Shown in pieces: positions 4,679 through 27,859 of a DNA stretch of 36,688 nucleotides (positions are counted from its first letter, which is position 1; the number at the start of each line of letters is the position of its first letter). The notes beneath the pieces were generated by a model. It ran no database searches, was not told the origin of the DNA, and saw only the letters and a list, made by a program, of their open reading frames with translations. Position numbers and translations under genes: made by a program. Location of the stretch: NCBI RefSeq assembly GCF_014836755.1, contig NZ_JACSQF010000024.1:1-36688 (forward strand), read 5' to 3'. Source of the stretch: Oerskovia merdavium (lineage in GTDB: Bacteria; Actinomycetota; Actinomycetes; Actinomycetales; Cellulomonadaceae).

Positions 4679-5125
4679 TCAGCGCCCGTCGAGCACCATG
4701 CACGTGAGACGGGCCGTGCAGACCCGCCGGGCCTCGTCGTCGACGACGACGATCTCGTAGCTCGCGGTCGTCCGCCCCAGGTGCAGAGCCGTCGCGACGC
4801 CGTGCACCGACCCTGAACGCACCCCGCGGTGGTGCGTGGCGTTGATCTCGATGCCCACGGCCGCGCGCCCCTCGCCCGCGTGGATCTGGGCTGCGATCGA
4901 GCCGAGGGTCTCGGCGAGGACGACCGAGGCTCCGCCGTGCAGGAGCCCCGCCGGCTGGGTGTTGCCCGCGACCGGCATGCTGCCGGTGACGCGGTCGGGC
5001 GCGACCTCGACGAGCGTGATGCCCATGCGTTCGATGAGGGTGCCCGCGGTGCTGGCCCGCAGCGCTGCGAGTGCCGCGTCGTCGGGGAAGGTGGTCGGGC
5101 TCTCGGCTCCGTGCGTGTCAGTCAT
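4679..5125 (-). CDS. Hotdog-fold acyl-CoA thioesterase (PaaI/MenI-like)
   Basis: The 148-residue protein is expected to hydrolyse an acyl- or aryl-CoA thioester. It has the signature LLHGGASVVLAETLGS, in which the glutamate is the catalytic residue of YdiI/MenI-type enzymes, followed by INATHHRGV and the strands GVATALHLGRTTASYEI. The closest familiar relatives are 1,4-dihydroxy-2-naphthoyl-CoA thioesterases of menaquinone synthesis, but the substrate cannot be fixed from sequence. The start is ATG 5125; an upstream GTG would run into the polA promoter. It diverges from polA with only 19 bp between start codons, so the two promoters must overlap or sit inside each other's genes. Confidence 0.8.
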   Translation of the reverse strand: MTDTHGAESPTTFPDDAALAALRASTAGTLIERMGITLVEVAPDRVTGSMPVAGNTQPAGLLHGGASVVLAETLGSIAAQIHAGEGRAAVGIEINATHHRGVRSGSVHGVATALHLGRTTASYEIVVVDDEARRVCTARLTCMVLDGR

Positions 5126-5137
5126 AGCGGATAGGTT
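5115..5137 (+). promoter_or_regulatory. PafBC-type DNA-damage promoter of polA
   Basis: GTGTCAGTC (5115-5123) matches TTGTCRGTG at 7 of 9 positions. Exactly 8 bp later is TAGGTT (5132-5137), and the GTG start of polA lies 7 bp beyond that. This is the layout of the mycobacterial RecA-independent damage promoter, giving a leaderless mRNA. The box lies within the first codons of the divergent thioesterase gene. Confidence 0.65.
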
Positions 5138-5144
5138 TGCACTC

Positions 5145-7826
5145 GTGACCACCACTTCGCGACCTCGCCTCCTGCTGATCGACGGACACTCGATGGCCTA
5201 CCGGGCCTATTTCGCCCTGCCGGTCGAGAAGTTCTCGACGACCACGGGGCAGTCGACGAACGCCGTCTACGGGTTCGTCTCGATGCTGACGAACCTGCTG
5301 CGCGACGAGAAGCCGACGCACGTCGCGGTCGCGTTCGACGCCGGGCGTGCGTCGTTCCGCACCGAGGTCCTGCCGACCTACAAGGGCACGCGCGACGCCA
5401 GCCCCGAGCCCTTCAAGGGTCAGGTCCCGCTCATCAAGGACATCCTCGCGACGCTCAACATCCCGGTCCTGCAGAAGGAGAACTTCGAGGCGGACGACAT
5501 CTTCGCGACCCTCGCGACCCAGGCGGCAGCCGCGGGCATGGAGGTCCTGGTCTGCTCGGGAGACCGCGACTCGTTCCAGCTCGTCGACGAGGACGTGACG
5601 GTGCTCTACCCCAAGGTCGGCGTCTCGACCCTGGCGCGCATGACCCCGGACGCGGTCCTCGAGAAGTACGGCGTCCCGCCCGAGCGCTACCCGGACCTCG
5701 CGGCCCTCGTCGGTGAGACGAGCGACAACCTCCCCGGCATCCCGGGCGTGGGCCCCAAGACGGCCGCCAAGTGGATCAACGCGTACGACGGCCTGGACGG
5801 CGTGCTCGCCTCGGCCGACAAGATCACGGGCAAGGCCGGGGAGAACCTGCGGGCCAACCTTGACCAGGTGCGCCTCAACCGCCAGCTCAACGCCCTGCTG
5901 ACGGACATGGAGCTCCCGCTCGGCCCGGACGACCTTCTGGTCCAGCCGTGGGATCGCGAGGCAATGCACCGCGTGTTCGACGCCCTGGAGTTCACGGCCC
6001 TGCGCGAGCGCCTGTTCGCGCTCGCCCCCGAGGGCGAGGAGGACGTCGAGGAGGGCTTCGACGTGTCGCTCGCCACGCTCGGGCAGGGGGAGCTCGGTGG
6101 CTGGCTCACGGCCCGCAAGGAGCGCCCGGTGGGCCTCGTGGTCGCGGGCAAGGCGGCCCCGGTAGGCGGGGACGCATGGTCGCTCGCTGTGGCGGACGAC
6201 GGCGCCGCAGCGGTCGCGGTGGACCTCGCCAGCGTCGCGGTCGTCGACGAGCAGGCGCTCTCGGCGTGGCTCGCGGACGCCGACGCGCCCAAGGTCGTGC
6301 ACGGGGCCAAGGCCACGTGGCACGAGCTCGCGGCACGCGGTTTCGACCTGCAGGGCGTCGTGTTCGACACCGAGCTTGCGGCCTACCTGTGCCACCCGGA
6401 CCAGCGCGGCTACGACCTGGGCGACCTCGCGATCCGGCACCTCAAGCGCGAGCTACGCGTCGAGGCCGTCGACGACGAGCCCCAGGGAGCACTTGATCTC
6501 TCGCTCGACGGCTCGGGCGAGGACAAGAGGGACGCCGTGCGCGCCGCCGGAGTCCTGGACCTCTCGGAGGTGCTGGTGGGTGAGCTGCGGGACCGCGGCG
6601 CGGACCACCTGCTCAAGGACCTCGAGCTGCCGCTCGTCGACGTGCTCGCCCGCATGGAGTCGCGCGGCATCGCCGCGGACGTCGAGTACCTCACCGAGCT
6701 CGAGAAGCACTTCAGCGAGCTCGTCGCGACGGCCGCGACCGAGGCGTACGACGTGATCGGGCGCGAGGTGAACCTGGGCTCGCCCAAGCAGCTCCAGGAG
6801 GTCCTGTTCGACCAGCTGGGCATGCCCAAGACCAAGAAGATCAAGACGGGGTACACGACGGACGCCGCGGCCCTCGCGGACCTGTTCGCCAAGACCGGCC
6901 ACCCGTTCCTCGAGCACCTGCTCGCCCACCGCGACGCCACGCGCCTGCGCCAGACGGTCGAGGGGCTACTCAAGTCGGTCGCTCCGGACGGGCGCATCCA
7001 CACGACGTTCCAGCAGACCATCGCGGCGACCGGGCGGCTCAGCTCGACCGACCCGAACCTGCAGAACATCCCCATCCGCACCGAGGCCGCGCGCCGGATC
7101 CGCCGCGCGTTCGTGGTGGGCGAGGGCTACGAGACCCTGCTGACCGCGGACTACAGCCAAATCGAGATGCGCATCATGGCGCACCTGTCGGGCGACGAGG
7201 GCCTCATCGAAGCGTTCCGGTCGGGCGAGGACCTGCACAGCTACGTGGGCTCGCGCGTGTTCGACGTCCCGACGGACCAGGTCACCCCGGCCATGCGCTC
7301 CAAGATCAAGGCGATGTCCTACGGCCTGGCATACGGCCTGTCCTCGTTCGGCCTCTCGCAGCAGCTCAACATCTCGGTCGGCGAGGCCGCAGGTCTCATG
7401 GAGGACTACTTCAAGCGCTTCGGCGGCGTGCGCGACTACCTCACGGGCGTCGTCGACGAAGCTCGGGTCACGGGCTACACCGCGACCATCCTGGGGCGTC
7501 GCCGCTACCTGCCGGACCTCACGAGCGACAACCGCCAGCGCCGCGACATGGCCGAGCGCATGGCGCTCAACGCCCCCATCCAGGGCAGCGCAGCCGACAT
7601 CATCAAGGTCGCGATGCTGGGCGTCCAGCGCGCGATCGACGAGCAGAACCTGCGCTCGCGCCTGCTGCTCCAGGTTCACGACGAGCTCGTGGTCGAGGTC
7701 GCAGCGGAGGAGCGGGACGTGGTCGAGGAGCTCCTGCGCCGCGAGATGGGGGCAGCCGCCGACCTCTCGGTCCCGCTCGACGTCTCGGTGGGAGCAGGCC
7801 GCACCTGGCACGACGCCGGCCACTGA
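5145..7826 (+). CDS. polA: DNA polymerase I
   Basis: This 893-residue enzyme fills gaps in excision repair and removes RNA primers. Domains in order: a 5'-nuclease domain (about 1-300, with LLLIDGHSMAYRAYFALP, CSGDRDSFQLVDEDV and the HhH-like LPGIPGVGPKTAAKW), a central 3'-5' exonuclease-like domain (about 310-500) lacking the first DxE metal motif and so probably inactive as in other actinobacteria, and a family A polymerase domain. Motif A is TADYSQIEMRIMAHLSGD, motif B is RSKIKAMSYGLAYG, and motif C is LLQVHDELVVE. The GTG at 5145 is chosen because a -10 TAGGTT lies 7 bp upstream and the conserved start TTSRPRLLLIDGHS follows at once. The promoter carries a PafBC-type box, suggesting damage induction with the uvr genes. 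Confidence 0.97.
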   Translation: MTTTSRPRLLLIDGHSMAYRAYFALPVEKFSTTTGQSTNAVYGFVSMLTNLLRDEKPTHVAVAFDAGRASFRTEVLPTYKGTRDASPEPFKGQVPLIKDILATLNIPVLQKENFEADDIFATLATQAAAAGMEVLVCSGDRDSFQLVDEDVTVLYPKVGVSTLARMTPDAVLEKYGVPPERYPDLAALVGETSDNLPGIPGVGPKTAAKWINAYDGLDGVLASADKITGKAGENLRANLDQVRLNRQLNALLTDMELPLGPDDLLVQPWDREAMHRVFDALEFTALRERLFALAPEGEEDVEEGFDVSLATLGQGELGGWLTARKERPVGLVVAGKAAPVGGDAWSLAVADDGAAAVAVDLASVAVVDEQALSAWLADADAPKVVHGAKATWHELAARGFDLQGVVFDTELAAYLCHPDQRGYDLGDLAIRHLKRELRVEAVDDEPQGALDLSLDGSGEDKRDAVRAAGVLDLSEVLVGELRDRGADHLLKDLELPLVDVLARMESRGIAADVEYLTELEKHFSELVATAATEAYDVIGREVNLGSPKQLQEVLFDQLGMPKTKKIKTGYTTDAAALADLFAKTGHPFLEHLLAHRDATRLRQTVEGLLKSVAPDGRIHTTFQQTIAATGRLSSTDPNLQNIPIRTEAARRIRRAFVVGEGYETLLTADYSQIEMRIMAHLSGDEGLIEAFRSGEDLHSYVGSRVFDVPTDQVTPAMRSKIKAMSYGLAYGLSSFGLSQQLNISVGEAAGLMEDYFKRFGGVRDYLTGVVDEARVTGYTATILGRRRYLPDLTSDNRQRRDMAERMALNAPIQGSAADIIKVAMLGVQRAIDEQNLRSRLLLQVHDELVVEVAAEERDVVEELLRREMGAAADLSVPLDVSVGAGRTWHDAGH

Positions 7827-7856
7827 CACCCCGTCCGCCCTCGGCAGGAGAGTGCA

Positions 7857-7883
7857 GGGCCGTCCGCCGTCAGCGGGCGGCCC
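7857..7883. terminator. Hairpin terminator between polA and HTH gene
   Basis: GGGCCGTCCGC (7857-7867) and GCGGGCGGCCC (7873-7883) form an 11-bp stem with one non-Watson-Crick position and a 5-nt loop. It lies between convergent genes and can serve both directions. Confidence 0.7.
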
Positions 7884-7898
7884 TCCGCCGTCCGAGGC

Positions 7899-8129
7899 TC
7901 AGGACCGCGTGAAGCGCGAGCCGCCGTACTTCTTGTGGACCGCCTGACGGCTGACCCCCAGGATCGTCGCGATCGCCGCCCAGGGAATCCCGCGGGACCT
8001 TGCGCGGCGGACGACGAGAGCCTCGCGCCGGTCGGCCTCGTCCCGGAGGTCGCGGAGCGCCGCGAGCGCGCGCAGCGGATCGTCGTCGTCGGCCGCGCGG
8101 ACGAGCATCGTCATGTCGGGCTCCTTCAT
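7899..8129 (-). CDS. Small helix-turn-helix DNA-binding protein
   Basis: This 76-residue protein is mostly helical. Residues about 20-50 (LAALRDLRDEADRREALVVRRAR) form a charged helix, followed by a helix-turn-helix, IPWAAIATILGVSRQAVHKKYG, of a kind widespread in actinobacteria. The ATG at 8129 is preferred because CGGAGGT lies 5 bases upstream; a longer frame to 8216 would start upstream of the predicted promoter. Two copies of the palindrome GTCAAC-N4-GTTGAC overlap its own -35 and -10, so autorepression by this protein is a reasonable inference. No effector domain is present. The methyltransferase gene lies upstream on the same strand. Confidence 0.75.
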   Translation of the reverse strand: MKEPDMTMLVRAADDDDPLRALAALRDLRDEADRREALVVRRARSRGIPWAAIATILGVSRQAVHKKYGGSRFTRS

Positions 8130-8183
8130 CGGTACCTCCGGTAGCGGGTCTCCCCGGTCCAGGTGGCGAGCAGTCGCCACGTT

Positions 8184-8227
8184 GTCAACATAGGTTGACG
8201 TCTCGTAGTGCGTCAACCCATGTTGAC
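8184..8227 (-). promoter_or_regulatory. Promoter with twin palindromic operators for the HTH gene
   Basis: GTCAACATAGGTTGAC (8184-8199) and GTCAACCCATGTTGAC (8212-8227) are two copies of GTCAAC-N4-GTTGAC, 28 bp apart. On the minus strand a promoter fits across them: -35 TTGACG (complement of 8211-8216) and -10 TATGTT (complement of 8187-8192) with an 18-bp spacer. One operator covers the -35 and the other the -10. Confidence 0.75.
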
Positions 8228-8252
8228 GCGCTAGGTGCGACGTGCCGGTGGA

Positions 8253-9062
8253 TCAGACCGCGCTGCGGGTCCGGAAGATCGCCGTGCCGGGGAGGTACGC
8301 GCCCCGCACCGGCCCCCAGCCGCCCCAGACCTCCTGGTTGTCAGCCGGCCACTCGGGCTCCACGACGTCCTCGACCAGGAGTCCGGCGGCGACGACCTCG
8401 CGGACGTGGTCCCCGAACGTGCGGTGGTACTCGGCATAGGCGACACGCCCGGCGGTGTCGGTCTCGACGTAGGGTCGACGGTCGAAGTACGAACGGTTCG
8501 CGGTCAGCCCGTGCGTGCTCGGGTCGTCGGGGAAGGCCCAGCGCAGCGGATGGGTCACCGAGAAGACCCACGACCCCCCGGGCCGCAGGACGCGAGCGAC
8601 CTCGCGATGGATCGCTCCGGCGTCGGGCACGAAGGGGATGGCGCCGAACGACGTGAAGGCGACGTCGAAGCTCGCGTCGGCGAACGGTAGTCGCCGGGCG
8701 TCCGCCTGGACCAGCGGGACCGGGACCCCGGTCGAAGCGTTGAGCGCGGCGCCCCTGCGCAGCATGCCGCCCGACACGTCGGTCGCGACGACCTCGACGC
8801 CGCGCGCGGCGAGCCAGCGCGAGCACTGCGCGGCGCCCGCGCCGACCTCGAGCACGCGCCGCCCGTCCAGGTCTCCCAGGAGGTGCGCGTCGGCCTCGCG
8901 GAGCCCCTCGGGGCACCAGCAGAAGTCGACCGCCCCCAGGAAGTCCCCGTGCTCGTCGAGGTACTCCTCGGCGTTGGCGTCCCACCAGGTGCGACCCGCG
9001 GCGCCGCCCTGCTCCGCCGGGACGTCCCGGTACCCGACCGATCCGATCGTCTCATCCGTCAT
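8253..9062 (-). CDS. Class I SAM-dependent methyltransferase
   Basis: The 269-residue protein has the Rossmann methyltransferase motifs: VLEVGAGAAQCSRWLAARG (SAM-binding motif I), VVATDVSGGML (motif post I, ending in the acidic ribose-binding residue), RLPFADASFDVAFTSFGA (motif II) and VLRPGGSWVFSVTHP (motif III). The N-terminal WWDANAEEYLDEHGDFLG and C-terminal AEYHRTFGDHVREVVAAGLLVEDVVEPEWP are typical of a common actinobacterial family of unknown substrate. The ATG at 9062 has GACGAT 6 bp upstream, a possible leaderless -10. It may be transcribed with the downstream HTH gene, although that gene has its own promoter. Substrate unknown. Confidence 0.8.
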   Translation of the reverse strand: MTDETIGSVGYRDVPAEQGGAAGRTWWDANAEEYLDEHGDFLGAVDFCWCPEGLREADAHLLGDLDGRRVLEVGAGAAQCSRWLAARGVEVVATDVSGGMLRRGAALNASTGVPVPLVQADARRLPFADASFDVAFTSFGAIPFVPDAGAIHREVARVLRPGGSWVFSVTHPLRWAFPDDPSTHGLTANRSYFDRRPYVETDTAGRVAYAEYHRTFGDHVREVVAAGLLVEDVVEPEWPADNQEVWGGWGPVRGAYLPGTAIFRTRSAV

Positions 9063-9116
9063 GCATCTATCGTCTCGCGACGAGGGGCGTGCGTCAGCAT
9101 CCGCCCAGGTGATCGA

Positions 9117-9122
9117 TAGGGT
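9117..9122 (+). promoter_or_regulatory. Possible -10 of pfkA
   Basis: TAGGGT fits TAnnnT and would give a leader of about 65 nt before the TTG at 9194. No clear -35 is visible. An ATG at 9143 lies between and is not preferred. Confidence 0.35.
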
Positions 9123-9193
9123 AGGGGCTGGTCGGTCGAGCGATGGCGCTGGTCCGCCTTCCGACGATCACTCATCACGAGACGAGGTTCGAG

Positions 9194-10219
9194 TTGCGCA
9201 TCGGTCTGCTCACAGGTGGCGGGGACTGCCCCGGTTTGAACGCGGCCATCAGGGCCGTCGTCAAGCAGGGGATGGGCGAGTACGGACACACGATCATCGG
9301 GTTCCGGAACGGGTGGAAGGGCGTCGTCGACGGCGACATCATCCCGCTCGGGCGCCAGGACATCCGCAACGTGCTCCCGGTCGGGGGGACCCTTCTGGGG
9401 ACGGCGCGTTTTCACCCGCACGCCTCCGACGGTGGGATCGACGCGGTCCTGGCCACGGTCGAGGCCGAGCGCCTCGACGCCATGATCTGCATCGGCGGCG
9501 ACGGCACGCTGCACGCGGCGAGCAAGGTCGCGGACGCCGGTGTGAACATCGTCGCGATCCCCAAGACGATCGACAACGACGTGGAGGGCACCGACCTGTC
9601 GATCGGGTTCCACACGGCCGTCAACATCGCGACCGAGGCGATCGACCGTGTGCACACGACCGCCGAGAGCCACAACCGTGTCATGGTCGTCGAGGTCATG
9701 GGCCGCCACGCGGGCTGGATCGCGGTGAACGCGGGCATCGCCGGTGGCGCCGAGGTCGTGCTCGCCCCCGAGGACCCGTTCGACATGGACGCCATCGAGA
9801 AGTTCCTGCGTCACCGCCACCGTGCGCACGCCAACTTCTCGATCGTGGTCGTCGCCGAGGGGGCCGTGCCGCGCGAGGGCAGCAGCATGAACTTCACGCA
9901 GGAGCTCGGCAAGTACGGCGAGATCATCGCAGGGTCGATCGGCGAGCGTGTCTCGGCGGAGATCGCCAAGCGCACGGGGTTCGACACGCGCCTGACCGTC
10001 CTCGGGCACGTCCAGCGCGGCGGGGAGCCCACGCCGACGGACCGCATCCTCGGCAGCCGCTTCGGCGTGGCCGCGGTCGACGCCATCTCGCGCGGCGAGT
10101 CGAAGGTCATGACCGCGTTGCGCGGGGAGAGCGTCGTCCTGGTGCCGCTCGACGAGATCGCCGGCAAGGTCAAGCACGTCCCGGCGGAGCTGCTGCGCGT
10201 CGCGCACGCGCTGTCCTGA
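9194..10219 (+). CDS. pfkA: 6-phosphofructokinase
   Basis: It phosphorylates fructose 6-phosphate to the 1,6-bisphosphate, the committed step of glycolysis. The 341-residue protein starts at TTG 9194, with GAGG about 6 bases upstream and the conserved RIGLLTGGGDCPGLNAAIRA directly after. Key motifs are GGDGTLHAA (101-109), PKTIDND (123-129) and MGRHAGW. Gly104 (E. coli numbering coincides here) indicates ATP as phosphoryl donor, since pyrophosphate enzymes have Asp. Lys124 instead of Gly is the residue seen in pyrophosphate enzymes and in some ATP-dependent actinobacterial relatives, so donor choice is likely but not certain. A 19-bp hairpin terminator follows. Confidence 0.93.
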   Translation: MRIGLLTGGGDCPGLNAAIRAVVKQGMGEYGHTIIGFRNGWKGVVDGDIIPLGRQDIRNVLPVGGTLLGTARFHPHASDGGIDAVLATVEAERLDAMICIGGDGTLHAASKVADAGVNIVAIPKTIDNDVEGTDLSIGFHTAVNIATEAIDRVHTTAESHNRVMVVEVMGRHAGWIAVNAGIAGGAEVVLAPEDPFDMDAIEKFLRHRHRAHANFSIVVVAEGAVPREGSSMNFTQELGKYGEIIAGSIGERVSAEIAKRTGFDTRLTVLGHVQRGGEPTPTDRILGSRFGVAAVDAISRGESKVMTALRGESVVLVPLDEIAGKVKHVPAELLRVAHALS

Positions 10220-10235
10220 CCGGCGCACACGTACT

Positions 10236-10275
10236 GCGCGACGGCCGTCCGTGGGACCACGGGCGGCCGTCGCGC
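10236..10275 (+). terminator. Strong hairpin terminator after pfkA
   Basis: GCGCGACGGCCGTCCGTGG (10236-10254) pairs with 10257-10275 at all positions save one G-U wobble. The rest of the 10220-10528 gap holds the rpsA promoter and its leader of about 165 nt. Confidence 0.8.
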
Positions 10276-10327
10276 GTCGTCGGGCGGGTGCGTTCCCACG
10301 CTCGGGGGAGACTGCCAGAATCTCCCT

Positions 10328-10357
10328 TTGACCCCTGCGCCTTTCCGCCGATAAGAT
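10328..10357 (+). promoter_or_regulatory. rpsA promoter
   Basis: TTGACC (10328-10333) and TAAGAT (10352-10357) with an 18-bp spacer make one of the closest housekeeping promoters in the window, fitting a highly expressed ribosomal gene. Transcription should start near 10364. Confidence 0.75.
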
Positions 10358-10528
10358 GTCTGACGGTGCAGTGCGCCTACCGCCCTACCTTCTGCCTGAG
10401 ACGTGATGCCGATCCGTGTCCGTCGTGGCGGGACCGTTCCGTGCTCGGAGCGGAGGTCACCGGTGGTGACCACCACAGCAGCATCCCTATCCGAACTACT
10501 TCCTGTCCGCATCGGAGCATCGAACTCA

Positions 10529-11998
10529 ATGACCATCTCCACCCCCGCGAAGTCCGCACCTCAGGTTGCCATCAACGACATCGGCACCGAAGAGGACTTC
10601 CTTGCCGCCATCGACGCCACCATCAAGTACTTCAATGACGGTGACATTGTCGAAGGCACGATCGTCAAGGTCGACCGCGACGAGGTTCTCCTCGACATCG
10701 GCTACAAGACCGAGGGCGTCATCCCCTCCCGCGAGCTGTCCATCAAGCACGACGTGGACCCCGGGGACGTCGTCAAGGTCGGTGACGCAGTCGAGGCCCT
10801 CGTCCTCCAGAAGGAGGACAAGGAAGGTCGCCTGATCCTCTCCAAGAAGCGCGCTCAGTACGAGCGTGCCTGGGGCACGATCGAGAAGATCAAGGAAGAG
10901 GACGGCGTCGTCACCGGCACCGTCATCGAGGTCGTCAAGGGCGGCCTCATCCTCGACATCGGCCTGCGCGGCTTCCTGCCCGCGTCGCTGGTGGAGATGC
11001 GTCGCGTCCGCGACCTCCAGCCGTACGTCGGCAAGGAGATCGAGGCGAAGATCATCGAGCTCGACAAGAACCGCAACAACGTCGTCCTGTCGCGTCGTGC
11101 GTGGCTCGAGCAGACGCAGTCCGAGGTTCGCTCGACCTTCCTGCAGACGCTGCAGAAGGGCCAGGTGCGCCCCGGTGTCGTCTCCTCGATCGTCAACTTC
11201 GGTGCGTTCGTGGACCTCGGCGGCGTCGACGGTCTGGTGCACGTCTCCGAGCTGTCCTGGAAGCACATCGACCACCCCTCCGAGGTCGTCGAGGTGGGCC
11301 AGGAGGTCACGGTCGAGGTCCTGGACGTCGACTTCGACCGCGAGCGCGTCTCCCTGTCGCTGAAGGCGACGCAGGAGGACCCGTGGCAGACCTTCGCTCG
11401 CACGCACGCCATCGGTCAGGTCGTGCCGGGCAAGGTCACGAAGCTCGTTCCGTTCGGTGCGTTCGTCCGCGTCGAGGACGGCATCGAGGGCCTCGTGCAC
11501 ATCTCCGAGCTGGCTGTCCGCCACGTCGAGCTGCCCGAGCAGGTCGTCAACGTCGGTGACGAGGTCTTCGTCAAGGTCATCGACATCGACCTCGAGCGTC
11601 GCCGCATCTCGCTGTCGCTCAAGCAGGCTAACGAGGGCGTGGACCCGGAGTCGGACGACTTCGACCCCGCGCTGTACGGCATGGCTGCCGAGTACGACGA
11701 GCAGGGGAACTACAAGTACCCCGAGGGCTTCGACCCCGAGACCAACGAGTGGCTCGAGGGCTTCGAGGCTCAGCGCGAGACGTGGGAGTCGCAGTACGCG
11801 AAGGCTCACGAGCGCTGGGAGGCTCACCGCAAGCAGGTCGCCGAGGCTCTCAAGGCCGACGACGAGGCCGTCACGTCGGGCGAGTCCACCAGCTCGGCAG
11901 CGACCTACTCCTCGACCCCGGTCCAGGACGAGGCTGCCGGCACGCTGGCCTCGGACGAGGCGCTCGCCGCTCTGCGCGAGAAGCTCACGGGTAACTGA
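10529..11998 (+). CDS. rpsA: 30S ribosomal protein S1
   Basis: S1 binds mRNA at the 30S subunit. The 489-residue protein starts at ATG 10529 (MTISTPAKSA), with a weak GGAG 11 bases upstream after a leader of about 165 nt. Four S1 RNA-binding repeats are visible at about residues 36-105 (GDIVEGTIVKVDRDEVLLDIGYKT), 123-188, 209-277 (GVVSSIVNFGAFVDLGGVDG) and 294-363 (GKVTKLVPFGAFVRVEDGIEG). Four repeats is the usual actinobacterial form; E. coli has six. A C-terminal extension of about 125 residues is acidic and then serine/threonine-rich. The weak ribosome site and long leader are compatible with S1 autoregulation, which is inference. Codon choice (AAG, CGT, GTC) fits high expression. Confidence 0.97.
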   Translation: MTISTPAKSAPQVAINDIGTEEDFLAAIDATIKYFNDGDIVEGTIVKVDRDEVLLDIGYKTEGVIPSRELSIKHDVDPGDVVKVGDAVEALVLQKEDKEGRLILSKKRAQYERAWGTIEKIKEEDGVVTGTVIEVVKGGLILDIGLRGFLPASLVEMRRVRDLQPYVGKEIEAKIIELDKNRNNVVLSRRAWLEQTQSEVRSTFLQTLQKGQVRPGVVSSIVNFGAFVDLGGVDGLVHVSELSWKHIDHPSEVVEVGQEVTVEVLDVDFDRERVSLSLKATQEDPWQTFARTHAIGQVVPGKVTKLVPFGAFVRVEDGIEGLVHISELAVRHVELPEQVVNVGDEVFVKVIDIDLERRRISLSLKQANEGVDPESDDFDPALYGMAAEYDEQGNYKYPEGFDPETNEWLEGFEAQRETWESQYAKAHERWEAHRKQVAEALKADDEAVTSGESTSSAATYSSTPVQDEAAGTLASDEALAALREKLTGN

Positions 11999-12032
11999 TC
12001 TCCTCCTGGCTTCGCGGCCAGGGTGATCTTCT

Positions 12033-18283: not shown

Positions 18284-18306
18284 GTGTCGGTGGTTCGCCG
18301 TACCGT
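18284..18306 (+). promoter_or_regulatory. PafBC-type DNA-damage promoter of uvrB
   Basis: GTGTCGGTG (18284-18292) matches TTGTCRGTG at 8 of 9 positions. After exactly 8 bp comes TACCGT (18301-18306), and 6 bp later the ATG of uvrB. This is the best box of the four in this window. Confidence 0.72.
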
Positions 18307-18312
18307 GGACTC

Positions 18313-20409
18313 ATGCGACCTGTCACCGATCTCCAGCGCACCGTCGCCCCCTTCGAGGTCATCTCCGACTACACGCCCTCGGGCGACCAGCCGACGGCCA
18401 TCGCCGAGCTCTCCGAGCGGTTGCGGGCGGGGGAGAAGGACGTGGTGCTGCTCGGCGCGACCGGGACCGGCAAGTCCGCGACGACCGCCTGGCTGATCGA
18501 GGAGCTGCAGCGGCCCACGCTGGTCATGGCACCGAACAAGACGCTGGCCGCCCAGCTGGCGACCGAGTTCCGTGAGCTGCTGCCCAACAACGCGGTCGAG
18601 TACTTCGTCTCGTACTACGACTACTACCAGCCCGAGGCGTACATCGCCCAGACGGACACCTACATCGAGAAGGACTCGTCGATCAACGACGAGGTCGAAC
18701 GCCTGCGGCACTCCGCGACCTCGTCGCTGCTGACGCGCCGTGACGTCGTCGTCGTGGCGTCGGTGTCGTGCATCTACGGACTGGGCACCCCGCAGGAGTA
18801 CGTCGACCGCATGGTCCGTCTCGACGTCGGAGACCAGGTCGAGCGGGACGTGATGCTCCGCCAGTTCGTCACCATGCAGTACACGCGCAACGACATGGCG
18901 TTCACGCGTGGCACGTTCCGCGTGCGGGGCGACACGGTCGAGATCATCCCCGTGTACGAGGAGCTCGCGATCCGTATCGAGTTCTTCGGTGACGAGATCG
19001 AGGCCATCCACCTGCTGCACCCGCTCACGGGGGAGGTCGTGCGGTCGGAGACGAGCGTCAACCTGTTCCCCGCGACGCACTACGTCGCCGGCCCGGAGCG
19101 CATGGAGCGGGCGATCACCTCGATCGAGGCCGAGCTCGAGCAGCGGCTGGCCGAGCTCGAGCGGCAGAACAAGCTGCTCGAGGCCCAGCGCCTGCGCATG
19201 CGCACCACGTACGACATCGAGATGATGCGCCAGATCGGGTCGTGCTCCGGGATCGAGAACTACTCGCGGCACATCGACGGCCGTGAGGCCGGCACGGCCC
19301 CGCACACGCTCCTCGACTACTTCCCCGAGGACTTCCTCCTCGTGATCGACGAGTCGCACGTGACGGTGCCCCAGATCGGGGCCATGTTCGAGGGGGACAT
19401 GTCGCGCAAGCGCAACCTCGTCGACCACGGGTTCCGTCTGCCGAGCGCCATGGACAACAGGCCCTTGCGCTGGGAGGAGTTCGTCGAGCGGATCGGGCAG
19501 ACGGTCTACCTGTCGGCGACGCCCGGGAAGTACGAGCTCTCGATGTCGGACGGGGTCGTCGAGCAGATCATCCGTCCCACGGGACTCGTCGACCCGGAGA
19601 TCGTGGTCAAGCCGACCACGGGCCAGATCGACGACCTGCTCCACGAGATCCGTGAACGGGTCGAGCGCAACGAGCGGGTCCTGGTCACGACGCTCACCAA
19701 GAAGATGTCCGAGGACCTCACGGACTACTTCCTGGAGCGGGACGTGCGTGTCCGCTACCTGCACTCGGAGGTGGACACGCTGCGCCGTGTCGAGCTGCTC
19801 CGCGAGCTCCGCCTGGGTGAGTACGACGTCCTGGTCGGCATCAACCTGCTCCGCGAGGGGTTGGACCTCCCGGAGGTCTCGCTCGTCGCGATCCTGGACG
19901 CCGACAAGGAGGGCTTCCTGCGGTCGGGGACGTCGCTCATCCAGACGATCGGGCGTGCGGCCCGCAACGTCTCGGGCCAGGTGCACATGTACGCGGACAA
20001 GATCACCCCGGCCATGGCGCAGGCGATCGAGGAGACCACCCGACGCCGCGAGAAGCAGGTGGCCTACAACCTGGAGCACGGGGTGGACCCCACCCCGCTG
20101 CGCAAGAAGATCGCCGACGTCACGGACATGCTCGCGCGCGAGGACATCGACACGCAGGAGCTCCTCGCGGGTGGCTACCGGCAGCCGGGCAAGGGCAAGG
20201 CCCCCGTGCCGGCAGGGGGCAAGGCGGGTGCGGCCACCAACCGGCTCGCCGGGGTCGCCGCGGGCGAGCTCGCCGACCTGATCCAGGAGCTGAGCGACCA
20301 GATGCACGGAGCGGCGGCCGAGCTCCAGTTCGAGCTCGCCGCCCGGCTGCGCGACGAGATCTCCGGCCTCAAGAAGGAGCTGCGCCAGATGCACTCCGCG
20401 ACCGCCTGA
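18313..20409 (+). CDS. uvrB: Excinuclease ABC subunit B
   Basis: UvrB verifies DNA damage after UvrA loading and recruits UvrC in nucleotide excision repair. The 698-residue protein has Walker A GATGTGKS (48-55), the damage-probing beta-hairpin with [11 protein letters not shown], the Walker B/DEAH-like box [13 protein letters not shown], late helicase motifs ([17 protein letters not shown] and QTIGRAARN), and a C-terminal UVR domain ([19 protein letters not shown]) that contacts UvrC. A glycine/alanine/lysine-rich linker of about 30 residues precedes the UVR domain. The ATG at 18313 is set by the -10 TACCGT 6 bp upstream, predicting a leaderless mRNA. The promoter carries the PafBC-type box shared with polA, uvrA and uvrC. 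Confidence 0.97.
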
Positions 20410-20519: not shown

Positions 20520-20525
20520 TGCTCG

Positions 20526-20685: not shown

Positions 20686-20702
20686 TACCGGAGGTATGTG
20701 TG

Positions 20703-21701: not shown

Positions 21702-22714
21702 TGCAGCACGAGCTCCCGTTCTGGTTCGAGGCGGCGTCCCTGACGTCCCTCGTCGTCCTCCTGCTCGTCGACCTGGTGATCGTGGGCAGACGCCCGCACG
21801 TGCCGTCGATGAAGGAGAGCGGCCTGTGGGTGGCGTTCTACGTCGCCCTGGCACTGGTCTTCGGTGGGCTCGTGGCTCTCGTGGGCGGGAGCGCGCCTGC
21901 TGTCGAGTTCTACGCAGGCTGGCTCACGGAGTACAGCCTGTCGGTCGACAACCTCTTCGTGTTCGTCATCATCATGACGAGGTTCGCCGTACCGCGAGAG
22001 CACCAGCAGAAGGTCCTCATGGTGGGGATCATCGTGGCGCTCGTGCTGCGCGGAGCCTTCATCCTGGCGGGCGCCGCGATCATCGCGCAGTTCGTGTGGG
22101 TGTTCTACCTGTTCGGCGCGTTCCTGATCTACACCGCGATCAAGCTGGTCGCGGGTGGGGACGAGCCGGAGGAGTACCAGGAGAACCGGCTGATCCGTTC
22201 GCTGCGGCGGGTGCTTCCCCTGTCGCAGACGTACGACGGCGGCAGGCTGCGGACCGTGGTGGACGGCAAGAAGCTCTTCACGCCGATGCTCATCGTGTTC
22301 CTCGCGATCGGCAGCACGGACCTGCTGTTCGCGTTCGACTCGATCCCCGCGATCTTCGGCCTGACGCAGGACCCGTTCATCGTGTTCACGACGAACGTCT
22401 TCGCGCTCATGGGGCTCCGCCAGCTCTACTTCCTGCTGGGTGGGCTGCTCGAGCGCCTGGTCTACCTGCCGATCGGTCTGGCGGTGATCCTGGGCTTCAT
22501 CGGGGTCAAGCTGATCCTCGAGGCGCTGCACGAGAACACGCTGCCGTTCATCAACGGCGGGCAGCACATCGAGGCCGTCCCCACGGTCCCGATCTGGCTC
22601 TCGCTCGTGGTGATCGTGGGGGCGCTGGGAGTCACCACGGTGGCGAGCCTGCTGCGCACGCGCGGCCAGGACAAGGCGGAACCCGTGTCCGACGACGTCG
22701 ACGTGGCCTCCTAG
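21701..22714 (+). CDS. terC: TerC-family membrane protein (probable Mn exporter), second copy
   Basis: This 337-residue paralogue of the preceding gene shares TEYSLSVDNLFVFVIIM, FAFDSIPAIFGLTQ, and the segments HQQKVLMVGIIVALVLR and FGAFLIYTA. It differs most at the N-terminus, in the hydrophilic loop (DEPEEYQENRLIRSLRRVLP) and in the polar C-terminal tail. The start ATG overlaps the previous stop (TGATG), so the pair is translationally coupled and should share riboswitch control. A hetero-oligomer, or exporters with different affinity, are possible; neither can be decided from sequence. It is followed by a C/G homopolymer hairpin. Confidence 0.9.
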   Translation: MQHELPFWFEAASLTSLVVLLLVDLVIVGRRPHVPSMKESGLWVAFYVALALVFGGLVALVGGSAPAVEFYAGWLTEYSLSVDNLFVFVIIMTRFAVPREHQQKVLMVGIIVALVLRGAFILAGAAIIAQFVWVFYLFGAFLIYTAIKLVAGGDEPEEYQENRLIRSLRRVLPLSQTYDGGRLRTVVDGKKLFTPMLIVFLAIGSTDLLFAFDSIPAIFGLTQDPFIVFTTNVFALMGLRQLYFLLGGLLERLVYLPIGLAVILGFIGVKLILEALHENTLPFINGGQHIEAVPTVPIWLSLVVIVGALGVTTVASLLRTRGQDKAEPVSDDVDVAS

Positions 22715-22746
22715 CCCGGCTCGCCCGGGCGTACTCGTGGCCCGGT

Positions 22747-22790
22747 GCACGACGGGCCCCCCCCCCCCGGGGGGGGGGGGGCCGTCGTGC
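22747..22790. terminator. Hairpin with C12/G13 homopolymer core
   Basis: GCACGACGG (22747-22755) and CCGTCGTGC (22782-22790) flank G, twelve C (22757-22768) and thirteen G (22769-22781). It forms an extremely GC-stable hairpin between the convergent terC and YciI genes. It can act as a terminator both ways, but homopolymer lengths may be sequencing or assembly artefacts. Confidence 0.65.
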
Positions 22791-22852
22791 TGTGCAGGTC
22801 GGGTCGTGCTGTGCTGTGCCGCGCCGGCAGATCGGCGCCAGGCCGTCCCGGG

Positions 22853-23161
22853 TCAGACGCGGTCGGACCAGGGTCCGAACACGGGGACCCAGGGGCGGAC
22901 CGTGCGACGCGTGATGACGTCCTCCCGGGCGAACGGGTCGGCGTCGAGCGTCGTGGCCACGGCGGCCTCGTCGGTGGCGTCGAGCAGCAGGAGCGCGCCG
23001 GCCGGGTTGGCGACGTCCTGTGCGAGGGGCCCGGACGCGAGCAACGTGCCTTCCTCGAGCAGGCCGCTCAGGAAGGCGCGGTGCTCGGGGCGGAAGGCGT
23101 CGAGGACCGCGGGCTTGTCGGCGTACGTGTAGGTCACTGCGAAGATCGGCATGCCGCTCAT
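22853..23161 (-). CDS. YciI-family protein
   Basis: The 102-residue protein is a small ferredoxin-like alpha/beta barrel dimer of the YciI (DUF1330-like) family. The pattern MPIFAVTYTYADKPAVLDAFRPEHRAFL is typical, with the conserved histidine-arginine pair in RPEHRAFL, then GTLLASGPL and the end DPFAREDVITRRTVRPWVPVFG. Some relatives act in ring cleavage, but most have no known reaction. ATG 23161 has AGGTG 6 bases upstream; ATG 23152 (MPIF) is an alternative. It lies 46 bp downstream of the metallo-hydrolase gene on the same strand, probably one operon. Confidence 0.8.
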   Translation of the reverse strand: MSGMPIFAVTYTYADKPAVLDAFRPEHRAFLSGLLEEGTLLASGPLAQDVANPAGALLLLDATDEAAVATTLDADPFAREDVITRRTVRPWVPVFGPWSDRV

Positions 23162-23207
23162 TCAAGCACCTCTGCCGACCCGGCCTGCCGCCGTCCCGGG
23201 ACCGGCG

Positions 23208-23915
23208 CTACCAGCCGCGCTCGCGCCACTCGTCGAGGTGCGGGCGCTCGGCGCCGAGCGTCGTGTCTGCGCCGTGCCCGGGGTAGACCCAGGTCGCGTC
23301 GTCGAACCGGTCGAAGAGCTTCTCGGTGACGTCGGCGTAGAGGAGCGCGAAGCGGTCCGGGTCGTTCGACGTGCTGCCGACCCCGCCCGGGAAGAGCGAG
23401 TCGCCCGTGAACAGGTGCACGCGGCCGGGGACGGCCTCCGGCGCGCTCGCGTGCTCGGGCTCGCGGTAGGCGAGCGTGACCGACCCCGGAGTGTGCCCGC
23501 GCAAGCCGATGACCTCGATCGTGAGGTGCCCGACGACGAGCGTGTCGCCGTCGTGCAGGGGGCGTGAGATCGCGCCGCCCGTCGTCTCGGTGATGGCGTC
23601 CGCGTCGGGGGCTCCCGCCGCGAGCGGTGCACCGGTGGTCGTGCCGAGCGAGGCGAGCGCGCGCGTGTGGTCGAGGTGCCGGTGCGTCGTGACCACCAGG
23701 TCGAGGCGGGCGGACGGCGATCCCTCGCGGACGAGCTCGAGCAGGTGGTCCGGTTCGGCCGCAGCGTCGACGAGGAGCTGGGCTCCGCTCCTCCGGCACG
23801 TCAGGAGGTAGGCGTTGTTGTCCGACGGCCCGACGGCGAGCTTGCGGATCTCGACCTCGTCGAGGACCCGCAGGTCGCGGGGCCCTCCGACCGTGACGTC
23901 ACCGGTGTATCCCAC
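23208..23915 (-). CDS. Metallo-beta-lactamase-fold hydrolase (glyoxalase II-like)
   Basis: The 235-residue protein has the full metal-site series of this superfamily: THRHLDH (His78, His80, Asp82, His83), then [16 protein letters not shown] (bridging aspartate) and a final histidine in YPGHGAD. The second and later motifs resemble hydroxyacylglutathione hydrolases and related thioester hydrolases. The start is GTG 23915, with AGGAG 5 bases upstream. Actinobacteria use mycothiol, so any glyoxalase role would use another thiol; the substrate is open. It diverges from uvrA with about 180 bp between starts and is followed by the YciI gene. Confidence 0.85.
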
Positions 23916-24063
23916 GTGCTCTCCTCGAGGTTCCTCGTGCCCGACGTGCCGTGTGACGCGCCTCTCTCCCGAGTCTGTCATGACGGGGCACCGGGTCGGG
24001 CCGCAGGTCAGGGGGACGCCACGTCGGCCTGTCGGGCAGTCCACCGCTCGAACAGGTGTGCGA

Positions 24064-24086
24064 ATGTCAGGGGCGAGGCATACGAT
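24064..24086 (+). promoter_or_regulatory. PafBC-type DNA-damage promoter of uvrA
   Basis: ATGTCAGGG (24064-24072) matches TTGTCRGTG at 7 of 9 positions, including the TGTCAG core. Exactly 8 bp follow, then TACGAT (24081-24086), and 6 bp later the GTG of uvrA. Confidence 0.68.
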
Positions 24087-24092
24087 GCTTCG

Positions 24093-27000
24093 GTGAGCAA
24101 TCGCCTTGTCATCGCCGGTGCCCGTGAGCACAACCTCCGCAACGTCGACCTCGACCTGCCGCGGGACCAGCTCATCGTCTTCACGGGCCTGTCGGGGTCC
24201 GGGAAGTCCTCCCTGGCCTTCGACACGATCTTCGCCGAGGGCCAGCGTCGGTACGTCGAGTCGCTGTCCGCCTACGCCCGTCAGTTCCTCGGGCAGATGG
24301 ACAAGCCGGACGTCGACTTCATCGAGGGGCTGTCGCCGGCAGTCTCGATCGACCAGAAGTCGACCAACCGCAACCCTCGCTCGACCGTGGGGACCATCAC
24401 CGAGGTCTACGACTACCTCCGCCTGCTGTTCGCCCGCGCAGGGACCCAGCACTGCCCGGTCTGCGGCGAGAAGGTCCAGGCGCAGACGCCGCAGCAGATC
24501 GTCGACCGCCTCCTCGAGCTGCCGGAGGGCACCCGCTACCAGGTGCTCGCGCCCGTCGTGCGCGGACGCAAGGGCGAGTACAGCGAGCTCTTCAAGGAGC
24601 TGCAGTCCAAGGGTTTCGCGCGCGCCCGCGTCGACGGCGAGGTCGTCCAGCTCACGGACCCGCCCGCGCTCGAGAAGAAGCTCAAGCACGACATCGAGGT
24701 CGTGATCGACCGCCTCGTCTCGCGCGACGGCGTCCAGCGCCGGCTCACGGACTCGGTCGAGACCGCGCTCGGCCTCGCGGGCGGGCTCGTCGTCGTCGAG
24801 CTCGTCGACGCTGACGCCGACGACCCGCAGCGCGAGCGTCGGTTCTCCGAGAAGCGGGCGTGCCCCAACGACCACGAGCTCACGCTCGACGAGATCGAGC
24901 CGCGCACCTTCTCGTTCAACGCGCCCTACGGCGCCTGCCCCGAGTGCACGGGCATCGGCTTCCGCCTCGAGGTGGACCCGGACCTCGTGATCCCGGACGA
25001 CGAGAAGTCCCTCGCAGAGGGTGCAGTCGCCCCCTGGGCCCAGATCTCCTCCGAGTACTTCAACCGCGTGCTGACCGCCCTCGCCTCGGACCTGGGCTTC
25101 TCCATGGACGTGCCCTGGCGTGCGCTGCCTCAGCGGGCGCAGCAGGCTGTCCTCTACGGCCAGAACCACGAGGTGCACGTCCGCTACAAGAACCGCTGGG
25201 GCCGGGAGCGCCAGTACTCGACAGGCTTCGAGGGTGTCGTGACCTTCCTGGAGCGCCGCCACGGCGAGACCGAGTCGGAGTGGTCCAAGGAGAAGTACGA
25301 GGCGTACATGCGTGAGACGCCGTGCCCGGTCTGCCAGGGCACGCGGCTCAAGCCCGAGGTCCTCGCGGTCAAGGTCGGTGACAAGTCGATCGCCGAGGTC
25401 TGCCGACTGCCGCTGCGCGAGGCCGCGGCCTTCCTCGGTTCGCTCGAGCTCGGCACGCGCCAGAAGGCCATCGCGACCGAGGTGCTCAAGGAGATCGACG
25501 CCCGCCTGGGGTTCTTGCTCGACGTGGGTCTCGACTACCTCTCGCTCGAGCGCCCGGCCGGGACCCTCTCGGGCGGCGAGGCGCAGCGCATCCGGCTCGC
25601 GACGCAGATCGGCTCGGGGCTCGTCGGCGTCCTGTACGTCCTCGACGAGCCGAGCATCGGTCTGCACCAGCGGGACAACCGGCGACTCATCGACACGCTC
25701 ACCCGCCTGCGCGACCTGGGCAACACGCTCATCGTCGTCGAGCACGACGAGGACACCATCCGTGCCGCCGACTGGATCGTGGACATCGGCCCCGGTGCCG
25801 GCGAGCACGGCGGGCGCGTGATCCACTCGGGCGACTACGCGGGGCTCCTCGAGGCCCCCGAGTCCGTCACGGGCGCCTACCTCGCCGGACGCCGCAGCAT
25901 CCCGCTGCCCGCGACGCGCCGGCCCGTGGACAAGAGCCGTCAGGTCACGGTCATCGGCGCGCGCGAGCACAACCTCGAGGGCATCGACGTGAGCTTCCCG
26001 CTCGGCACGCTGACCGCGGTCACGGGTGTCTCGGGCTCGGGCAAGTCGACGCTCGTCAACTCGATCCTCTACACCGTGCTCGCGAACGAGCTCAACGGGG
26101 CGCGGCAGGTCGCCGGTCGGCACCGGCGCATCACGGGGCTCGAGAACCTCGACAAGGTGGTCCACGTCGACCAGGGCCCCATCGGCCGCACGCCCCGGTC
26201 CAACCCGGCGACGTACACCGGGGTCTGGGACCACGTCCGCAAGCTCTTCGCGGAGACCAGCGAGGCCAAGGTGCGGGGATACACCCCGGGCCGGTTCTCG
26301 TTCAACGTCAAGGGTGGGCGCTGCGAGGCGTGCTCGGGCGACGGGACCATCAAGATCGAGATGAACTTCCTGCCGGACGTGTACGTCCCGTGCGAGGTCT
26401 GCCACGGTGCGCGCTACAACCGCGAGACGCTCGAGGTGCACTTCAAGGGCAAGACCGTCGCCGACGTGCTCGACATGCCCATCGAGGAGGCGTCGGAGTT
26501 CTTCGCCGCGGTGCCCACGATCTCGCGGCACCTCAAGACGCTCTCCGAGGTCGGCCTGGGGTACGTGCGCCTGGGGCAGCCCGCGCCCACGCTCTCGGGC
26601 GGCGAGGCGCAGCGCGTCAAGCTGGCCAGCGAGCTGCAGAAGCGGTCGACGGGCCGCACCATCTACGTCCTGGACGAGCCCACGACGGGTCTGCACTTCG
26701 AGGACATCCGCAAGCTCCTCGCGGTGCTCCAGTCGCTCGTGGACAAGGGCAACTCGGTGCTCGTGATCGAGCACAACCTGGACGTCATCAAGAACGCCGA
26801 CTGGGTCATCGACATGGGACCCGAGGGCGGATCGGGTGGTGGCCGGGTCATCGCCGAGGGAACGCCCGAGCAGGTGGCGGCCGTCGCCGCGAGCCACACG
26901 GGCAGGTTCCTCGCCGAGGTGCTTCCCGGTGACCCGATCCCGGTCGCACCGCTGCCCAAGAAGGCCGCAGCAGCCAAGGTGCCCCCGGCCAAGACGTCCC

Positions 27001-27104
27001 GGAAGACCCCGGTCCGCAAGGCCACGGCAGCGGCCTCCAAGTCGTCGGCGACCGTGAAGGCGTCGGTGGGCACGCCCGACGACGACGCGCGCGAGAGCGC
27101 CTGA
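24093..27104 (+). CDS. uvrA: Excinuclease ABC subunit A
   Basis: UvrA is the ATPase that finds damaged DNA and loads UvrB. The 1003-residue protein has two ABC ATPase modules: Walker A GLSGSGKS (32-39) and GVSGSGKST in the second half, signatures [14 protein letters not shown] and [14 protein letters not shown], and Walker B sequences [11 protein letters not shown] and [11 protein letters not shown]. The zinc site of the first half is CPNDH...CPEC (Cys/His form), and that of the second half is CEAC...CEVC. A basic C-terminal extension of about 50 residues, rich in lysine, alanine and proline (from [14 protein letters not shown]), goes beyond the conserved end. The GTG at 24093 is fixed by TACGAT 6 bp upstream, predicting a leaderless mRNA; the promoter has the PafBC-type box. 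Confidence 0.97.
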
Positions 27105-27160
27105 CGGGCGGCGTCGAGCTCGCACGCGAGAGGCGCTTGGCCCTGCCGTCGGAGGGCTCC

Positions 27161-27270
27161 GCTGCCCGGCCGCGCGGTCGCCGGGCAGCGCGCGTGATCG
27201 CGTGCTGGCCTTTCGCTGGCTGGACGGCCTGCCCGGGCGGCGCGACCAGGTCGTTGCATGCCGCCCGGGT
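27161..27270. terminator. Two hairpins between uvrA and the OsmC gene
   Basis: GCTGCCCGGC (27161-27170) pairs perfectly with GCCGGGCAGC (27180-27189). A second stem joins 27231-27241 (GCCCGGGCGGC) to 27260-27270 with one wobble. The flanking genes converge; the first hairpin probably ends uvrA and the second ends the OsmC gene. Confidence 0.7.
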
Positions 27271-27272
27271 GG

Positions 27273-27758
27273 TCAGGCCGCGTGCGTGCGCAGCGGAACG
27301 GGTTCGAGCAGCACGGGGAAGTTCACGGACCGGGCCAGGAAGCAGTGGTCGTGGGCCCGGCGGTGGACCTCGGCGACCGCCTCGTCGGTGACCTCGGGGC
27401 CGTCGTCGACGACGACGTGCGGGTGCAGCGTGACGTCCGTGAACTGACCTGCCCCCGCCGACTCGACCCGCATGGTCCCGGTGACCTCGTCCGAGTACTC
27501 GCGCACGACGATCCCCGCAGCCGACGCGAGGTGCAGGAACCACAGCATGTGGCACTGCGAGAGGCTCGCGACGAACAGCTCCTCGGGGCTGTACCGGCCG
27601 GGGTCCCCACGGAACGCCGGGTCGGCGGACCCGGGCAGCGTCGGACGGCCTGCGAGGTCGATCTCGTGGTCACGGCTGTACGCGGTGTAGGTGGTGGTTC
27701 CGGTCTGGCCTGCGCCGGTCCAGCGGACGGTCGCGGCATAGGAGTGAAGGGCGCCCAT
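27273..27758 (-). CDS. OsmC-family peroxiredoxin-like protein
   Basis: OsmC/Ohr proteins reduce organic hydroperoxides with a pair of cysteines. The 161-residue protein carries both: Cys69 in SLSQCHMLWFL and Cys139 in HDHCFLARSVNFPV, with the conserved PEELFVASL before the first and RYSPEE near the active-site arginine and glutamate. The N-terminal strands TYTAYSRDHEIDL fit the family. ATG 27758 has TAGGGT 6 bp upstream on the minus strand, so it is probably leaderless. It belongs to the wider OsmC group rather than clearly Ohr. The substrate is not known. Confidence 0.87.
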   Translation of the reverse strand: MGALHSYAATVRWTGAGQTGTTTYTAYSRDHEIDLAGRPTLPGSADPAFRGDPGRYSPEELFVASLSQCHMLWFLHLASAAGIVVREYSDEVTGTMRVESAGAGQFTDVTLHPHVVVDDGPEVTDEAVAEVHRRAHDHCFLARSVNFPVLLEPVPLRTHAA

Positions 27759-27770
27759 GCGGTCACCCTA
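27759..27770 (-). promoter_or_regulatory. Leaderless promoter of the OsmC gene
   Basis: On the minus strand TAGGGT (complement of 27765-27770) precedes the ATG at 27758 by 6 bp. No PafBC-type box lies at the right distance. Confidence 0.5.
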
Positions 27771-27836
27771 GCGGCCCGAGGCCGTGGATGTGTGACGGGC
27801 GTCACGGTGAGCTGGTGCGGTCGCAGGGCGCCCGGG

Positions 27837-27859
27837 GTGTGGGTGGGCTGACCTAGGCT
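27837..27859 (+). promoter_or_regulatory. PafBC-type DNA-damage promoter of uvrC
   Basis: GTGTGGGTG (27837-27845) matches TTGTCRGTG at 7 of 9 positions, losing the central C. Exactly 8 bp follow, then TAGGCT (27854-27859), and 7 bp later the ATG of uvrC. This is the weakest of the four boxes, but the spacing is exact. Confidence 0.55.

Follow-up and report, generated by a model that had tools for sequence, protein, structure and literature searches.

Predicted PafBC-dependent promoters precede polA, uvrB, uvrA and uvrC in Oerskovia merdavium

We analysed a 36,688-nucleotide stretch of Oerskovia merdavium DNA (assembly GCF_014836755.1, contig NZ_JACSQF010000024.1, positions 1 to 36,688; hereafter the window), which lies on contig 16 of a genome of 4.49 Mb in 46 contigs and carries polA and the nucleotide excision repair genes uvrB, uvrA and uvrC. 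Our analysis indicates that each of these four genes is very probably driven by a predicted PafBC-dependent promoter of the RecA-NDp type, which would use the mycobacterial mechanism and yield a leaderless transcript, with uvrA under double control and the four genes belonging to a wider regulon. The published consensus of PafBC-dependent promoters is tTGTCRgtg, 8 nt and TannnT (PMC5656591). The promoter elements and genes concerned are the following.

5115 to 5123, plus strand: predicted PafBC (-26) box of polA, GTGTCAGTC; its last base falls in CAT (5123-5125), the start codon of the divergent thioesterase gene.
5132 to 5137, plus strand: -10 element of polA, TAGGTT; GTG at 5145, 7 bp between.
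5145 to 7826, plus strand: polA, DNA polymerase I (NCBIfam equivalog).
4679 to 5125, minus strand: divergent hotdog-fold thioesterase; on the opposite strand its first bases, ATG-ACT-GAC-AC, read as the polA box with two bases of the spacer.
18284 to 18292, plus strand: predicted PafBC box of uvrB, GTGTCGGTG.
18301 to 18306, plus strand: -10 element of uvrB, TACCGT; ATG at 18313, 6 bp between.
18313 to 20409, plus strand: uvrB (NCBIfam equivalog).
24048 to 24063, plus strand: SOS (LexA)-type box before uvrA, TCGAACAGGTGTGCGA, with 11/12 specified bases; it abuts the PafBC box of uvrA.
24064 to 24072, plus strand: predicted PafBC box of uvrA, ATGTCAGGG.
24081 to 24086, plus strand: -10 element of uvrA, TACGAT; GTG at 24093, 6 bp between.
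24093 to 27104, plus strand: uvrA (NCBIfam equivalog).
27837 to 27845, plus strand: predicted PafBC box of uvrC, GTGTGGGTG.
27854 to 27859, plus strand: -10 element of uvrC, TAGGCT; ATG at 27867, 7 bp between.
27867 to 30065, plus strand: uvrC (NCBIfam equivalog).

Read and scored by script, the boxes match TTGTCRGTG at 7/9 positions for polA, 8/9 for uvrB, 7/9 for uvrA and 7/9 for uvrC, and in all four cases exactly 8 bp separate the box from TAnnnT. An earlier note, made from the sequence of the window, had attributed one PafBC-type damage promoter to the four genes, and every coordinate that it gave for box scores, 8-bp spacing, TAnnnT and the 6-7 bp to the start was confirmed in this way.

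The same note had made its reading depend on the presence of the regulator genes, and both were found in the genome, adjacent to each other on contig 43: pafB (WYL and WCX domains) and pafC (HTH_PafC at 6.5e-35, WYL and WCX), among five WYL matches in all. Among solved structures, the two proteins match best the PafB (9e-63) and PafC (1.6e-43) chains of M. smegmatis transcription initiation complexes (PMC11804915), together with an Arthrobacter PafBC crystal structure. The pair is followed by tatC, a diacylglycerol-kinase-like gene and a DSHCT helicase, an order that resembles the mycobacterial one. MoxR-type ATPase and DUF58 genes are found upstream on the opposite strand (G000:C43:84001-102000, L325). 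No Pup ligase was found in the 20 open reading frames scanned in the 18 kb around pafBC, the rest of the genome not having been searched for one. HTH_PafC is present in 31/31 genomes drawn from the family, and pafB stands beside pafC in 29/30 family loci, the one exception lying where a contig ends.

A genome scan of the kind proposed in the earlier note gave 45 sites for KTGTCRGTG-N8-TANNNT with at most one mismatch, several of them before repair genes, versus 1 for the reversed motif. With at most two mismatches, the TTGTCRGTG form has 154 sites (43 reversed) and the GTGTCRGTG form 246 (99 reversed). We inspected 42 loci among the matches listed for these two forms. The -10 element has TA and the final T intact in 27/42, and a start codon (open reading frame of at least 80 amino acids) follows 4-11 nt past the -10 in 19/27 of these, versus 3/15 of the loci without an intact -10. 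Repair or replication genes account for 9/19 of the close-start sites, namely uvrB, uvrC, polA, pcrA/uvrD, radA, a dinG/yoaA-type helicase, dnaE, sbcD and a DEDD/GIY-YIG exonuclease; for several of these the scan covered the first 500 or so amino acids, up to where the locus ends, so that some model scores (pcrA, dinG/yoaA) lie under the curated cut-off. A tenth repair gene with the motif, uvrA, is outside the 42 inspected loci. Where the -10 is not intact, one of the three close starts is that of an Lhr-like helicase gene (L025). The recA gene has a perfect GTGTCAGTG box, with the start 76 or 85 nt past the -10 and an SOS-type box farther upstream, and a box also occurs at longer distance before a gene with a UvrB-interaction domain (L039), which is probably Mfd. 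Hence the proposal that all of nucleotide excision repair and its gap-filling polymerase form one regulon stands insofar as the four genes share the motif, and fails as to a closed unit, the motif being found also at recA, radA, pcrA, dnaE and others: polA, uvrB, uvrA and uvrC are part of a wider predicted PafBC regulon. As separate observations, dnaE, encoding the DNA polymerase III alpha subunit (L029, G000:C2:120572), and an Imm51-family gene (L024, G000:C2:34873) each have the box, with the start 6 and 7 nt past the -10, respectively.

Each of the four genes was then compared in 30 family genomes of 24 genera (G017, of the 31 drawn, had no uvrB locus among those listed and was left out for the other three genes too), the -10 being picked blind to the box, with preference for 6 or 7 nt to the start, and the box being scored against KTGTCRGTG. 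Boxes of at least 7 of 9 at the 8-bp spacing were found in 24/30 genomes for uvrB, 26/30 for polA, 16/30 for uvrA and 15/25 with a -10 for uvrC, for which 5/30 genomes have none; at least 6 of 9 is reached in 28, 27, 20 and 22 genomes, respectively. Spacers 3-7 and 9-13 gave zero boxes at this 7-of-9 threshold in all four gene sets, and spacer 14 gave 7 of them in the polA set. When G023 is dropped, the mean information per box column is 1.10 bits for uvrB, 1.17 for polA, 0.63 for uvrA and 0.88 for uvrC, versus 0.06-0.15 at 46-60 bp before the -10, and the spacer is intermediate (0.32-0.97). Unlike the mycobacterial consensus, the boxes of uvrB, polA and uvrC begin much more often with G than with T. 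A TTGACA-like -35 at 5 or more of 6 with a spacer of 16-19 occurs in 0/115 family promoters, whose mean number of TTGACA matches is 1.9-3.0 versus 2.2-2.5 in shuffled sequences. The start codon lies 6 or 7 nt past the -10 in 114/115, a count partly owed to the way the -10 was selected. As an off-by-one control, the start-anchored pattern at spacing 9 gave 12 matches in the 31 family genomes (0 in our own) versus 8 reversed. The comparison across related genera that the earlier note had asked for thus found the box kept at 8 bp and not at the neighbouring spacings, and its reading of these elements as PafBC-type promoters, a prediction from sequence, is backed by the presence of pafB and pafC, by the genome-wide motif and by the exact spacing conserved in the family.

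The four promoters could instead be ordinary leaderless housekeeping promoters, in which TAnnnT alone counts, the box having arisen by chance or being part of upstream sequence in general. We scanned both strands of the window for TAnnnT 6 or 7 bp before ATG or GTG of open reading frames of at least 100 amino acids, with a box threshold of 7 or more of 9. Eight such sites exist, and the 4/8 with a box at 8 bp are polA, uvrB, uvrA and uvrC; 0/8 have one at any spacer of 3-7 or 9-14. As regards the seven other genes that the earlier note lists as lacking a box, the window-wide scan shows no more than the absence of a fifth site with the full geometry of box, 8 bp, TAnnnT and start. As a control we took 20 stretches of 20 kb (400 kb, G+C 72%) from the same genome, where 9-mers reach 7 or more matches to TTGTCRGTG at 0.22% of positions. 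TAnnnT without a box does occur 6-7 bp before starts there, at 47 sites, as the housekeeping explanation would expect, yet 0/47 reach 7 at the 8-bp spacing and 2/47 reach 6, the lone matches of 7 or more lying at spacers 6 and 11 (hypergeometric p 2e-4 for 4/8 versus 0/47). The spacing test and the column conservation across the family contradict it as well. Chance or general leaderless promoters are therefore disfavoured, and we regard the housekeeping explanation as highly improbable.

Another possibility is that these repair genes form a LexA-controlled SOS regulon, induced through RecA and LexA, and that the boxes are not PafBC sites. Its best evidence comes from uvrA, whose PafBC box begins at the base right after the SOS-type box (pattern TCGAAC-N4-GTTCGA, 12 specified bases). 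With at most two mismatches this pattern has 630 matches per strand in the genome versus 203 reversed, so the lone match at uvrA is weak evidence and conservation is the evidence that counts. The best match before uvrA scores 10 or 11 of 12 in 29/30 family genomes (9-11 over all 30), at -44 to -46 from the start, and in none of these genomes did more than 1 of 50 shuffled sequences score as high. The SOS-type box and the PafBC box position abut exactly (gap 0) in 22/30 genomes and to within one base in 29/30. In 30/30, among them G004 and G028, the right half has G or A, never T, as its third base, which makes the operator imperfect in every genome. Where the PafBC box of uvrA scores below 6, in 10 genomes, the SOS-type box is kept at 10 or 11 in all 10, and recA also has an SOS-type box. 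Against an SOS regulon stand the other three genes, since no SOS box was found before polA, uvrB and uvrC of our genome, the best matches being 8, 9 and 8 of 12, scores (8-9 of 12) that are usual in these gene sets across the family. An SOS regulon is thus very unlikely as an explanation of the four boxes. The claim of LexA independence in the earlier note does not hold for uvrA, with its conserved SOS-type box, and can hold for polA, uvrB and uvrC; uvrA is probably under double control by LexA and PafBC, as predicted from these sites. The polA box raises a different question, since the divergent thioesterase opens with ATG-ACY-GAC, which gives GTCRGTCAT on the opposite strand, and the box could be a coding by-product, ATG-ACY-GAC-AC read backwards. 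Indeed, M-[TSA]-[DH] is read there in 26/30 genomes. Because coding alone could conserve the polA box, we examined which codons are used. Codon 2 of the divergent gene encodes Thr in 23 genomes, as ACC in 14, ACT in 9 and ACG or ACA in 0, whereas in the remainder of these genes ACT makes up 2/372 Thr codons (0.5%) and ACG plus ACA 194/372 (52%), giving binomial p values of 3e-15 and 4e-8 with shared ancestry ignored. Codon use this far from background is what selection on box position 6 predicts, and the bias is explained by such apparent selection for A or G, not by coding. Given also that uvrB, uvrA and uvrC carry the same box and spacing, we consider a coding by-product extremely improbable.

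If PafBC drives these promoters as it does in mycobacteria, DNA damage would yield single-stranded DNA that activates the PafB-PafC heterodimer; the helix-turn-helix of PafB would bind the -26 box, that of PafC would contact domain 4 of the housekeeping sigma factor, and RNA polymerase could then start at promoters otherwise unused. For mycobacteria this is described as sigma adaptation, with PafB on the -26 motif and single-stranded DNA as the activator (PMC11804915), and we infer that the mechanism operates here too. With the start codon 6-7 nt past the -10, geometry implies that the transcript should begin with the start codon itself, which would place the box at about -29 to -21; the leaderless reading of the earlier note agrees with this geometry, the start codon sitting where the transcript should begin. 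At uvrA, LexA would repress from the operator abutting the PafBC box and PafBC would raise expression. On a bolder reading, nucleotide excision repair in Actinomycetes is built on old, hard-wired leaderless PafBC promoters whose bases serve regulation and other functions at once, with the consistently imperfect LexA operator of uvrA fused to the box and the polA box set in divergent codons; here we hesitate, leaning slightly towards doubt. Were it true, one bound protein would exclude the other at uvrA, both damage pathways being integrated on about 40 bp, and the polA box would be written into the first codons of the divergent gene, whose codon choice would be bent to keep it.

At uvrB, the geometry is found in many genera. 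We examined 80 uvrB loci (L225-L304), the best 80 of 588 UvrB relatives in named genomes, taking the best-scoring upstream site. Among these best 80, the most similar full-length UvrB proteins are those of Actinotalea subterranea (89%) and Cellulomonas sp. Root485 (88%), and very near genomes may be omitted. In L225-L256, a box of 7 or more with TAnnnT at 8 bp was found in 19/32 loci, with the start 6 or 7 nt on in 18/19; the genera include Peterkaempfera, Streptomyces (S. oceani), Nocardioides, Arthrobacter, Microlunatus, Mycolicibacterium, Planomonospora, Microcella, Microbacterium, Curtobacterium and Aeromicrobium, and the nineteenth boxed locus, that of Nocardia, has another in-frame start 1 nt on. 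Two of these loci are from Streptomycetaceae, to which we take Peterkaempfera to belong: Peterkaempfera matches at 9/9 and S. oceani at 7/9. The 13/32 loci without such a box include two of Bifidobacterium, those of Mobiluncus, Corynebacterium, Rothia, Saccharothrix and Hamadaea, and two cut by a contig end, and 0/48 of the loci L257-L304 (aquatic and acidimicrobial lineages, Firmicutes and others) have one. In a sample of 148 genomes of the class, the motif is at least twice as frequent as its reverse in 109/148, and PafC is present in 145/148.

Several observations weigh against the PafBC explanation of the four promoters. At uvrA and uvrC, about half of the family genomes have no box or one scoring less than 7 of 9, and the score is under 6 in a quarter to a third of them. 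In G028, which keeps PafC, none of the four genes retains the box; G004 keeps PafC and has lost it at uvrB and uvrC, with a weak box at uvrA (6/9) and one kept at polA; G012 and G015 keep PafC and have lost the boxes at polA, uvrA and uvrC. A possible case of rewiring is represented by G004 and G028, which belong to one genus of the family. The 30 genomes are also related, G023 being nearly identical to our own, so that the counts are not independent events. In our genome, a role in repair is not apparent for 10/19 of the close-start sites that have an intact -10: they precede genes for a DUF4240 protein, an ACT-domain protein, an ABC transporter, a histidine kinase, a response regulator, a YbaK-type deacylase, an Imm51 protein, a glyoxalase-like protein and a protein with a weak HATPase match, and a family-less open reading frame overlapping the start of a phage-integrase-family gene. 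In the class sample, 39/148 genomes have less than a twofold motif excess and 38/39 of these have PafC, and the three genomes lacking PafC show 3.0-, 2.4- and 1.1-fold excess; because PafC is nearly universal (145/148), the comparison of motif and PafC by presence and absence has little power, and its result is mixed.

The promoters described here resemble the mycobacterial PafBC or RecA-NDp (P1) promoters in the box, the 8-nt spacing, TannnT and the orthologous PafB and PafC (PMC5656591, PMC11804915). According to a review, UvrABC belongs to the PafBC regulon of M. smegmatis, recA, uvrA and uvrC are doubly controlled there, and the RecA-NDp promoter reaches beyond mycobacteria (PMC8223512); a Streptomyces gene with a RecA-NDp-type promoter is described in PMC5087735. 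The core regulon is thus already known from mycobacteria, and what we describe is a known regulon in another lineage. The SOS-type and PafBC boxes of uvrA parallel the double control that the review reports for this gene (PMC8223512), whereas uvrC, doubly controlled according to the same review, has no SOS box here. The polA box, which overlaps a divergent start codon, differs from mycobacterial systems, and the leaderless geometry was compared in mycobacteria at one Mycolicibacterium uvrB locus, which has it. For S. venezuelae, PMC9380542 reports that an initial search suggested the M. smegmatis PafBC motif not to be conserved, unlike the clear motif in the genome studied here, and that uvrA has a LexA chromatin immunoprecipitation peak on an SOS box bound less tightly than those of recA, lexA2 and dnaE2-2, in line with the imperfect uvrA box in all 30 genomes of our family.

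In the parts available of the PafBC literature we met neither this lineage nor the exact fit of the leaderless geometry in different genera, the end-to-end arrangement of SOS-type and PafBC sites or the polA overlap, and no paper joining PafBC with Cellulomonas turned up in a literature search. The mycobacterial damage response is extended here to a Cellulomonas-like lineage with strong comparative evidence. The same uvrB promoter geometry in many named genera, including two Streptomycetaceae, bears on a group in which a published search left the existence of a PafBC response open (PMC9380542). The abutting LexA-type and PafBC sites of uvrA offer a compact and testable case of how two damage sensors responsive to single-stranded DNA may share one gene.

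Some further observations concern the same genes and motif. Variants of the uvrB box with the same 8-bp spacing and the start 6-7 nt on are TTGTCGTAG in Streptomyces oceani (L236), TTGTCGTAC in Saccharothrix (L245), TTGTCATAC in Hamadaea (L248), and CTGTCACAC (L260) and GTGTCACAC (L270) in acidimicrobial genomes; PafB and the 3' portion of the -26 element may have drifted together. Two families of the class sample (f21 and f22; 24 genomes of 4.7-9.9 Mb) carry 67-195 motif copies each, with a median of 10- and 7-fold over the reversed motif, and if f21 is Streptomycetaceae, a large PafBC regulon may exist there. A second UvrA-like match in our genome (G000:C12:8938-10953) has 42% identity to UvrA residues 272-990. 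Downstream of uvrC, close and on the same strand, lie the rapZ open reading frame (30062-31024, with the RapZ match from residue 39) and yvcK (31027-31989), and induction of uvrC by PafBC may extend to both genes (region 27867-31989).

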